Origin: Thermincola carboxydiphila | GTDB lineage: Bacteria > Bacillota > Thermincolia > Thermincolales > UBA2595 | DNA: 64,000 bases | Assembly: GCA_016841045.1 (NCBI GenBank) | Contig: JAENZX010000001.1 | Coordinates: forward strand, 205,541-269,540 | Direction of reading: 5' to 3' | In this document: positions 15,268 through 19,851 of the stretch, one piece after another | Position numbering within the stretch: position 1 is the stretch's first letter | Layout of the letters: each line of letters starts with the position of its first letter | Notes under the pieces: generated by a model | Told to the model about the DNA's origin: nothing | The model's input: only the letters and a program-made list of their open reading frames with translations | Database searches by the model: none | Made by a program: the position numbers and the translations under genes

Positions 15268-16743
15268 TTAGGTGCCGCAAAAGGTTCGGTAAAGACGGTT
15301 TGTTAATTCAGGCAGTGTAGAGTAATACTCCTGTTCAGGGCAATGGGAGTAGGGGGTTGAAAGAACCTCAAGAAGGCGCTCCATCACGCTGTAGTCTCTA
15401 TGTTCCACTGCCGCTTCCAAAGCTTCTTCAACCCTGTGGTTGCGAGGAATTAGCGCAGGATTACTGTCCCTCATCAACTGATGAGAAGCCTCCTTTGATT
15501 CCCGCTGTCTTTCCAATCTTGCCTGCCAAAGCTTATTCCACTTTATAAATTCTGGAGTGCCAACTAAAACCGAATCCTCCGCCTTGTCAAAAGTCAATGC
15601 CTTAAAAGTATTGGTGTAATCAGCACTATACTTCTGCATCATACTTAGTAGATCTTCAATGAGGGATTCATCTTCAGGCTCCTCGTTAAATATCCCCAGT
15701 TTAGCTCTCATTCCCCTGAGCCAATTATAGTGATACAACTCTGTAAAGCTTGAAACCGCATCCTGGGCCAATTTGACAGCCTGCTCCTGGTCAGCATGGA
15801 GCAGCGGCAATAAGGTTTCTGCAAATCTGGCCAGATTCCATGCGGCAATATTCGGTTGGTTACCATAGGCATAGCGACCATAAGTGTCAATGGAACTGAA
15901 TACTGTCGCAGGGTCATAGGTATCCATGAAGGCGCAGGGGCCATAATCAATGGTTTCTCCACTAAGGGCCGTGTTATCGGTGTTCATTACCCCGTGAATA
16001 AAGCCAACCATCTGCCATTTAGCAATCAGCGCGGCCTGGCGTTTAATTATTTCTTGAAGCAGGTTAAGAAAGCGATTCTCATCAGCGTCAACTTCCGGAA
16101 AATGCCTCTGCAGTGTATAATCAGCCAGAGTCCGGAGTTCCTCAACAGTGCCCCATTGTGCAACGTATTGAAAAGTGCCAACCCGGATATGACTGGCAGC
16201 TACACGGGTAAGAATTGCACCAGGTAGAGCAGTTTCGCGGATTACTGATTCACCCGTTGCTACCACCGCCAGACTGCGGGTGGTAGGAATACCGAGGGCA
16301 TTCATAGCTTCACTGATGATATATTCACGCAGCATCGGACCAAGAGCCGCCCGACCGTCACCCCCACGTGAATATGGCGTTTTGCCGGAGCCCTTGAGTT
16401 GAATATCAAACCTTTCACCTGAAGGTGTAATCTGTTCACCTAGCAGGTGAGCCCGACCGTCACCCAACATCGTAAAATGCCCGAACTGATGCCCCGCGTA
16501 GCCTTGAGCAAGCGGCAAAGCGCCTTCGGGAATCCGGTTGCCGGCAAGCATCGCTGCCCCCTCGCTGCTTTGCAGTGTATCAGTGTTTAACCCCAGGGAT
16601 TCTGCCAGCGAAGAATTGAAAATGATCAACTTTGGTGAACGTACAGGAGTCGGGTTGAGGATAGAAAAAAATGATTGCGGCAGACGAGCATAGCTGTTGT
16701 CTAAGTTCCATCCTGTTTCGATTGCTGCTTTAGTATTTGTCAT
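15268..16743 (-). CDS. selO: SelO/YdiU protein adenylyltransferase (pseudokinase-fold)
   Basis: 491 residues from the ATG at 16743 (AAGGAG upstream; a longer frame is unsupported). SelO motifs: [59 protein letters not shown] with the DYGP metal-binding site. It transfers AMP to Ser/Thr/Tyr of target proteins, using ATP in an inverted orientation, and is tied to redox stress. The C-terminus ends FCGT, with Cys where eukaryotic SelO carries selenocysteine. Neighbours are unrelated. Confidence 0.93.
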
Positions 16744-16877
16744 GATTTCTCCTTGTCTTCTTCCATCTTTTGCTTTTGTTTTACAACAACTCAACGTCAT
16801 CCTTTCTAGTGTCTGCTTGTGCCCATCTTTTATACTGGAAGAAAACTTCTTATATTCTACATGTCCAATCATTGAAA

Positions 16878-17935: not shown

Positions 17936-18208
17936 CTAACAGTCACAATGGGGCTCACTACCTGTGAGCCAGCCTTTTATAATGGCATAAGTTCATCCTA
18001 CACCTGATCTGACAGTTACTGCATTAATTGGACAGTTTTGGGCACAGGCTCCACATTCCATACAACTATCCTTATCACGTATATCGGCTTTGCCTCCGTC
18101 AATCATAAAAACCTGGTGAGGGCAAACCTGAAAACATATTCCACAACCAATACATTTATCCTTATTTAACTTTAGAGTCACTACGTCTTTTAAATACTTA
18201 AGAGCCAT
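17936..18208 (-). CDS. hgcB: HgcB, ferredoxin partner of mercury methylation, with in-frame TGA (candidate Sec72)
   Basis: Residues 1-71 form a 2x[4Fe-4S] ferredoxin: CIGCGICFQVCP (19-30) and CMECGACAQNCP (49-60), the latter the HgcB form. A TGA at 17993-17995 would end it after SGVG. The same frame continues TYAIIKGWLTGSEPHCDC to a TAG, giving 90 residues with the Cys-x-Cys tail expected of HgcB. The TGA falls at the conserved extra Cys (Cys73 in the Desulfovibrio ND132 protein). A SECIS-like hairpin follows. HgcB is thought to donate electrons to HgcA. The alternative is a nonsense mutation. The gene begins 13 bp after hgcA. Confidence 0.85.
17952..17995 (-). promoter_or_regulatory. Candidate bacterial SECIS element in hgcB
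   Basis: TGA (17995-17993), 22-nt linker, then the perfect 7-bp stem GGCTCAC / GTGAGCC with loop AGGTA. The loop starts 29 nt after the TGA and has G as its second base. Bacterial SECIS elements are described as stem-loops with the apical loop roughly 16-37 nt after UGA and a G in the first two loop bases. No T-run follows, so it is not a terminator. Confidence 0.65.
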
Positions 18209-18221
18209 AATTTTTTGTCAC

Positions 18222-19358
18222 CTACCCTAAATTTGATATGGTGTATGCAACTAATAATCCGATACCTGCAATGGATGCTGCGACCACCAAAGGCACCACA
18301 ATGATAGTTTCTCTCAGTGTACCTGAGAAAGATGTATACGTACTGGAACCAGTAAAATTCAACGCAAGGTATGTAGATATTGACAGAAGCAGTAAAATGT
18401 TACCTATTAATATGAGGTGGTTATCAGCGAACATAAACACACTATGGAAGTTAAAAAATACCAACGCCCAAAGAGAACCGAGAAATAAACCTTTTAAAGC
18501 GAAGGACCTAAATGGAATGTATGGCAATAACACCGGAACAAAAAAGGTTCCCATCAGGAATGCCCCGACATATGAAAGGAGATTGAAAAAGGTTTCTGTT
18601 AGACTGTTTAAGTCAAAACCACGGTGGTTAATTATGTTAAAGACTAACAATAAAATAACCGGTATTAATAAAAATTTCAGACCGGGAATTATCTCCATGG
18701 GAGTCAATACAATCCTGTCTTTTAAATCAAAGCTTACCGTTCGCATTTCATTGGATGCATTCCAGCCGTTGGCCAGAAACTCAGGAATATCTTTGGCTCT
18801 TACCGGCCCAAAGCTTACTTTGAACCCGGAGCTTTTAGTTACTTTTTGGCTTGCTACGCCGGGCGCTCCAAGCTGCGGTATGATAATCTTCCGATGGGAT
18901 ACCACATGTTCTAACTTAGTCTTATTGATTCTGTTGATAAGCTCATTTGTACCGAAGGTACCTTTACCTGCCGCACACCAAACATTGATGCCTTTTGTGT
19001 TCAGGACCAAAACCCATAAGTTTTGACCAGCTAATTCCTTACGTAATAAATCAAAGGTTAGTTTATAATTAGCTGTGACAATAACTGGTGAATCCTGCTT
19101 TGGATCTCCTACAGCATAAAGCCCCGGCGAGACAGTATAGTTATAACGGTTTATACCCCATCTAACCTTGAAGTTGTCAAAGTGGTCCTTTGCGGTTAAC
19201 ACGGTTCTTATTCTCCGTATTTTGCCAACGGGGTTTTCTATATACCCCTCAATCCACTCGTGCTGGACACCCTCGTCATTATATAATGCCCCATCAGTAT
19301 CTACCTCAGGCAGACAATCTTTCGGCCCTCAACAATTTCTCTGATTATTGTCTATCAT
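18222..19358 (-). CDS. hgcA: HgcA, corrinoid mercury methyltransferase, with in-frame TGA at codon 10 (candidate Sec10)
   Basis: The hallmark cap-helix motif NVWCAAGK is present (Cys128 of the extended protein), followed by GTFGTNELINRI and QLGAPGV. About five membrane helices fill the C-terminal half. A frame starting at GTG 19202 lacks the family N-terminus; reading upstream restores EWIEGYIENPVGKIRRIRT. That segment runs from ATG 19358, which has AGAGGTG 7 nt upstream, through one TGA (codon 10) in the context Asn-Cys-TGA-Gly-Pro-Lys-Asp-Cys. Total 378 residues. HgcA transfers a methyl group from its corrinoid to Hg(II); its native role is unknown. Confidence 0.88.
19298..19331 (-). promoter_or_regulatory. 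Candidate bacterial SECIS element in hgcA
   Basis: TGA (19331-19329), then an 8-pair stem TGTCTGCC... TTGTCTGCC / GGTAGATA (two G-U pairs) closing loop TGA. The apical loop starts 20 nt after the TGA with G as second base, within the described bacterial SECIS range. Weaker than the hgcB hairpin. Confidence 0.5.
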
Positions 19359-19367
19359 AGCAAACAC

Positions 19368-19399
19368 CTCTGTTAACTTAAATCTCTGTTAACTTAAAT
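19368..19399. repeat. Tandem 16-bp repeat upstream of hgcA
   Basis: CTCTGTTAACTTAAAT occurs twice head to tail, ending 9 bp before the hgcA start. Each unit contains the palindrome GTTAAC. It overlaps the ribosome binding site region, so it could bind a regulator or be a slippage duplication. Confidence 0.7.
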
Positions 19400-19519: not shown

Positions 19520-19753
19520 TTAACCCTTCGTCTCCCTGTTGTTATCTGTGATGAAATCAGCTGGAATCCGGTCATCAAGAGCACTTGAGATATATTGCTG
19601 ATTATTTCTATCTTTCTCGTTCTCGTCAATTTCCTGGTATATCATTTCCTGCCCGGAGTCTTCAGTGTCCTCGACAGTGTTTGATTCAGTGATGGTTACC
19701 TTGTAACCGCTGGCATACATCGGCCAAATTCCCTTCCGGTTACTTTTTGACAT
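19520..19753 (-). CDS. Small acidic hypothetical protein
   Basis: 77 residues from the ATG at 19753, preceded by AAGGGGG at a 7-nt spacing; a longer reading frame lacks a site. Basic N-terminus (MSKSNRKGIWPMYASGYKVTI) followed by a highly acidic tail rich in Glu, Asp, Asn. No membrane segment. It lies between bioY copy 2 and hgcA, with its own terminator. I do not recognise the family. Confidence 0.65.
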   Translation of the reverse strand: MSKSNRKGIWPMYASGYKVTITESNTVEDTEDSGQEMIYQEIDENEKDRNNQQYISSALDDRIPADFITDNNRETKG

Positions 19754-19851
19754 AACATAACCCCCTTTTTCAAACTCACTCTTTTTAGTGTCTGCTTCTG
19801 CCAGTTTATTATTACCCATAAGCAGTGTCAAATTTTACATGCTAATTAAGC

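Follow-up and report, generated by a model that had tools for sequence, protein, structure and literature searches.

Methylmercury is a global pollutant, and the chemistry between selenium and mercury is unusually strong. For HgcB of Pseudodesulfovibrio mercurii ND132, the accessible parts of the published accounts describe Cys73 as essential and propose that it receives the methylmercury product, and they assign to the Cys94/Cys95 tail of the same protein a proposed role in acquiring Hg(II) (PMC7305189, PMC11588087). The available text of a 2026 review lists among prokaryotic selenoproteins both HgcA (motif CU, WP_250697417.1) and HgcB (motif GVGU, WP_250697400.1), each with reference to Haft & Gwadz 2023, J Bacteriol 205:e0025922 (PMC13188914), and the same 2023 paper is cited, in the available part of another source, for the statement that there may be selenoproteins among the homologues of HgcA and HgcB (PMC11588087).

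As far as these partial sources go, the reading of the hgcA and hgcB genes of Thermincola carboxydiphila proposed here, in which selenocysteine (Sec) is predicted in both proteins, is an instance of a kind that is already published. What this locus adds is a case with Sec in both partners, plus a relative (L011) with which it can be compared. The window referred to below is the whole stretch of DNA that was analysed, 64,000 nucleotides long (assembly GCA_016841045.1, contig JAENZX010000001.1, positions 205,541 to 269,540), and it derives from a 4.16 Mb genome that is a draft of 75 contigs and is listed as 100% complete.

The hgcA reading frame and its possible starts

The hgcA gene occupies positions 18222-19358 of the window on the minus strand, where a single frame of 378 residues extends from ATG 19358 to TAG 18222 and is interrupted by one TGA alone, at codon 10 (positions 19329-19331), in the context N-C-TGA-G-P-K-D-C; the 378 codons count this TGA as Sec. 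A ribosome-binding site, AGAGGTG, lies upstream of the ATG at positions 19365-19371. The preliminary description of this DNA had reported a frame that reaches ATG 19358 through one TGA next to a Cys codon, a ribosome site at this ATG, and a requirement that translation without readthrough start at GTG 19202, and all three points are borne out by the present analysis. This GTG (codon 53, positions 19200-19202) is the only ATG, GTG or TTG besides ATG 19358 among the first 70 codons, and it is preceded by a possible ribosome site, GGAG, with a 10-base spacer, the site of ATG 19358 being the better spaced of the two. Between the TGA (codon 10) and GTG 19202 (codon 53) lies EWIEGYIENPVGKIRRIRT.

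In a profile search, HgcA matched the family model NF040863 with 429.5 bits (cut-off 275), and its cap-helix motif NVWCAAGK, which includes the conserved Cys, is a segment (N125-K132) that is invariant across 25 aligned HgcAs. The NF040863 model starts at HgcA residue 47, so an HgcA begun at GTG 19202 retains nearly all of the model, and the earlier estimate that such a start would cost about 50 conserved residues was overstated. The AlphaFold2 model of HgcA (mean pLDDT 83.5) contains a corrinoid domain and five long C-terminal helices (residues 212-246, 250-276, 286-303, 314-333 and 344-377); the pLDDT of residues 1-30 is below 50, and two paired strands, 36-42 and 45-50, are modelled with confidence on the N-terminal side of codon 53. 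This predicted structure fits a flexible Cys-Sec tail preceding a domain from which a start at GTG 19202 would remove the strands at 36-50.

Probable translation upstream of GTG 19202

The alternative that survives best is that HgcA is made from GTG 19202 only, as a shorter protein and without readthrough, the sequence ahead of this GTG being a remnant or an untranslated leader. Such a protein would keep nearly the whole family model and could use the GGAG described above, HgcAs with naturally short N-termini exist (for example L070 and L072), and the Cys pair is absent from 16 of the 41 HgcA loci considered below. However, this alternative has to be weighed against L011, a Bacillota MAG contig whose HgcA is 66% identical over residues 54-378. 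Codon 53 is AGT in L011, which is no start codon, so the GTG 19202 start is not common to the two loci.

The pattern of divergence between the window and L011 also bears on this question. Across hgcA codons 11-52, the two loci differ at 10 first, 8 second and 29 third codon positions (P 6e-5 versus a uniform spread, with sites taken as independent), the same third-position bias is found in the rest of hgcA (80/49/190), and the two other reading frames of the codon 11-52 stretch contain stops in both loci alike. Therefore, the bias indicates that the stretch from the TGA to GTG 19202 evolves as protein-coding sequence. The better-spaced ribosome site of ATG 19358, the confidently modelled strands at residues 36-50, and the retention of Cys-TGA at the place of Cys-Cys in two other genomes also argue against translation from GTG 19202 only, which we regard as unlikely.

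Cys-Cys, Cys-TGA or neither in HgcA relatives

When 75 codons of upstream frame were inspected for 41 distinct HgcA loci, 22 had Cys-Cys, three had Cys-TGA (the window, L011 and L043) and 16 had neither; not counted were L024-L027, whose matches are short, L045 and L097, which have about 30% identity and score below the cut-off of the family, L040-L042, which duplicate L080, L083 and L070, and L090, L091 and L094, which repeat L011, the window and L043. In at least six of the 22 Cys-Cys rows, a long and open upstream frame makes the true start uncertain. When 25 of these loci were aligned, Cys-Sec came to lie in register with Cys-Cys, and the residue that follows is Ser, Cys or Ala in most Cys-Cys rows.

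These observations modify what had been proposed in the preliminary description. Its view that the frame upstream of GTG 19202 encodes the family N-terminus agrees with the Cys-Cys or Cys-TGA of 25 of the 41 loci, but this extension is not universal. Similarly, its suggestion that Cys-Sec-Gly replaces a Cys-Cys-Gly stands for the Cys-Sec pair, but not for the Gly, which is not general. The objection that it had anticipated, that close homologues might start downstream of this region or lack Cys here, is true of 16 loci and untrue of the 25 others (22 with Cys-Cys, three with Cys-TGA).

Both TGAs are kept in L011, which has N-Y-C-TGA-G-P-K-E at the same place in hgcA and GVG-TGA-TYAII in hgcB. 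In L043 (genome G051), with an HgcA that is 47% identical, the TGA is codon 9 in the context S-C-TGA-V-V, a strong ribosome site, AGGAGG, is found before a GTG start, and the HgcB has Cys, not TGA. A further upstream frame, that of the divergent HgcA of L095 (G285), contains Cys-Asp-TGA-Val followed by a hairpin (z -1.61) and is possibly another Sec form with CxU spacing; having Cys-Asp-TGA and a long-branched row in the tree, it was left out of the Cys-TGA count.

The partner gene hgcB

The gene for the dicluster ferredoxin HgcB (positions 17936-18208, minus strand) has 90 codons when its TGA is counted as Sec, and its product matches NF040864 with 131.1 bits (cut-off 99), contains two 4Fe-4S motifs and has GVG before the conserved Cys position. 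It was claimed earlier that the partner gene also carries a TGA at a Cys-like position, and this is what is found, since the one TGA of hgcB (codon 72, positions 17993-17995; context GVG-TGA-TYAII, hence GVGU if read as Sec) is at the position of the essential Cys73 of strain ND132. A scan of 33 loci gave an HgcB match in 24, with TGA after GVG in five (the window, L011, L013, L092 and L093) and Cys in 19. The Sec-HgcB rows need two changes on the tree, many of whose forks are weak. Across the loci compared, predicted Sec is found in both partners in the window and L011, in HgcA only in G051, and in HgcB only in G237, G369 and L013; from this distribution, it appears that Sec was gained or lost separately in HgcA and HgcB. 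The L013 locus (Desulfobacterales MAG JASJCE010000262.1) has an HgcB with GVG-TGA in another phylum, and its HgcA retains Cys-Cys.

The bases that encode the HgcB tail 3' of the TGA are nearly frozen between the window and L011, with differences at two of 54 bases, both of them third positions, whereas 33 of 71 third positions differ before the TGA (hypergeometric P 0.005 for the contrast, with sites taken as independent). This near-invariance points to a constraint on the RNA besides that on the protein. At its 3' end, L011 hgcB has a second in-frame TGA (CD-TGA-RKYKA), 18 codons past GVG-TGA, at the place taken in the window by the final Cys of CDC. This second TGA is probably an ordinary stop, and it was taken as such because no clear hairpin follows it (z -0.08), a second Sec being possible.

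Had the TGAs arisen by random nonsense mutation or by errors of sequencing, both genes would be pseudogenes in this genome, an explanation that gains something from the interruption of each gene and from the draft state of the assembly. Yet TGA is the only interruption, with no TAA, TAG or frameshift in either gene, the HgcB tail after the TGA is near-invariant between the window and L011, and both TGAs occur at the same two places in L011. The argument made at the outset was that two TGA codons at Cys-like positions in partner genes make random nonsense less likely; L011 and L043 both carry the hgcA TGA at the matching position, which is more than chance would give. The chance nonsense or pseudogene explanation was rejected on the ground that the same TGAs are found in independent assemblies, and we consider it hardly credible.

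Hairpins downstream of the TGA codons

If the codon 10 TGA of hgcA is read as Sec, a structured element might be expected in the RNA 3' of it, and the 8-pair hairpin with loop TGA that had been described there, its loop starting after 20 intervening bases, is indeed present at positions 19298-19316 on the minus strand (MFE -13.8). This candidate bacterial SECIS folds with an energy that beats shuffled sequence by no more than a modest margin (z -1.76). The hairpin of L011 hgcA has the same loop and place, with a z-score of -3.29, two G-U pairs of the window being G-C there, and that of L043 hgcA is weaker (z -0.99).

The candidate bacterial SECIS of hgcB (positions 17952-17970, minus strand) is a perfect 7-pair hairpin, GGCTCAC-AGGTA-GTGAGCC. 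All seven pairs are formed in the window and in L011, six of seven in L092 and L093, and two of seven in L013. Among the 19 Cys forms the number ranges from one to six of seven, with six in two of them. The fold z-scores for hgcB are also modest (window -1.7, L011 -1.84, L013 -0.96, L092 -1.66 and L093 -0.56), and L013 has a different hairpin, whose loop, GGTC, starts at the 18th base after its TGA. Fold energies of single sequences are not in themselves proof of a SECIS element, and the hairpins are candidates.

Selenocysteine machinery

The preliminary description had stated that its interpretation of hgcA would fail in a genome that contains no selenocysteine machinery. The T. carboxydiphila genome encodes tRNA-Sec (73.9 bits, cut-off 47), SelB (359.9 bits, cut-off 242.25), SelA (635.1 bits, cut-off 267.9) and SelD (400.4 bits, cut-off 125), all above curated cut-offs, so the Sec reading survives on this point. 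In addition, the SelD gene has one in-frame TGA of its own, in the motif SCSAG-TGA-AAK, and therefore this genome very probably uses Sec elsewhere too. SelB exceeds its cut-off in 30 of the 34 HgcA-bearing genomes examined, so the machinery alone does not discriminate among them; all genomes with a TGA form (G000, G051, G131, G237, G369 and G398) are among the 30 with SelB.

It is scarcely to be believed that TGA specifies another amino acid here (for example Trp, in a reassigned code) or is passed by general leaky readthrough, for which the sole point is that the frame stays open whatever residue TGA is taken to encode, since the aligned residue in relatives is Cys, the machinery present is that for Sec, hairpins follow both TGAs, and TGA is apparently an ordinary stop in other loci, such as at the HgcB ends of L073 and L078. 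Because relatives have either Cys or the same TGA at codon 10 and the genome contains a full Sec machinery, the hgcA stop is very probably read as Sec.

Neighbouring genes and other matches

The third gene downstream of hgcA (positions 15268-16872, minus strand) encodes a YdiU/SelO-like protein that exceeds the cut-off of NF000658, with 560.8 bits, but does not reach those set for the SelO equivalog models. A small acidic ORF (positions 19520-19777, minus strand), for which a profile search gave no NCBIfam match, lies directly upstream of hgcA, following a biotin synthase gene and one for a BioY-like membrane protein that was named by eye. The window's own genome also contains a protein, the C19 match, that is 28% identical to HgcA over residues 76-211 only and that we take to be a related corrinoid protein of the acetyl-CoA pathway.

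Proposed roles and comparison with known systems

Taking both genes together, we hold with high confidence that Sec at HgcA codon 10 and HgcB codon 72 is the best reading of this locus. The frame, the conserved TGA, the aligned Cys in relatives, the machinery and the hairpins can all be read from the sequences, and it is from these that we infer the actual insertion of Sec. HgcA translation would begin at ATG 19358, and SelB and tRNA-Sec, aided by the hairpin directly downstream, would decode the UGA at codon 10 as Sec. The protein would then carry a Cys-Sec pair on a flexible N-terminal tail that precedes the corrinoid domain. In HgcB, Sec from the codon 72 UGA would replace the Cys that is involved in mercury methylation.

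The Cys-Sec tail of HgcA may capture or pass on Hg(II), as a mobile mercury-binding pair resembling those of mer proteins. The selenolate of HgcB could bind Hg(II) or the methylmercury product, and the simplest proposal is that it would do the work of Cys73 with a higher affinity for mercury. Combining these roles, one may tentatively picture a doubly selenium-dependent methylmercury synthase, in which the HgcA tail captures Hg(II), Sec72 of HgcB takes the role of Cys73, and methylmercury formation in these Bacillota depends on selenium; we think this possible and would put its chances somewhat below even.

Two mercury-handling thiols present as selenols would tie mercury methylation to selenium supply. 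For annotation, the predicted Sec codons mean that such hgcA and hgcB genes would not be broken, and that an hgcAB survey that ends its frames at TGA would cut HgcB off at its key residue and trim HgcA.

Among described systems, the selenoprotein HgcA with motif CU (NF040863) is like the window HgcA in its family, its Cys-Sec motif and its one Sec per protein, as far as the available text of the review describes it; for the selenoprotein HgcB with motif GVGU (NF040864), a comparison at the level of the motif gives the same motif as the GVG-TGA of the window and found no difference within that text (PMC13188914). The Cys-form HgcAB of P. mercurii ND132, in the accessible parts of its descriptions, resembles the predicted products of the window in comprising a corrinoid protein with a Cys cap helix, a five-helix membrane domain and a dicluster ferredoxin (PMC7305189, PMC11588087). 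Within the same partial accounts, three differences from ND132 stand out: the Cys73 position of HgcB is a predicted Sec in the window, the window HgcB tail ends in Cys-Asp-Cys whereas that of ND132 has Cys-Cys, and the window HgcA has a predicted Cys-Sec N-terminal tail.
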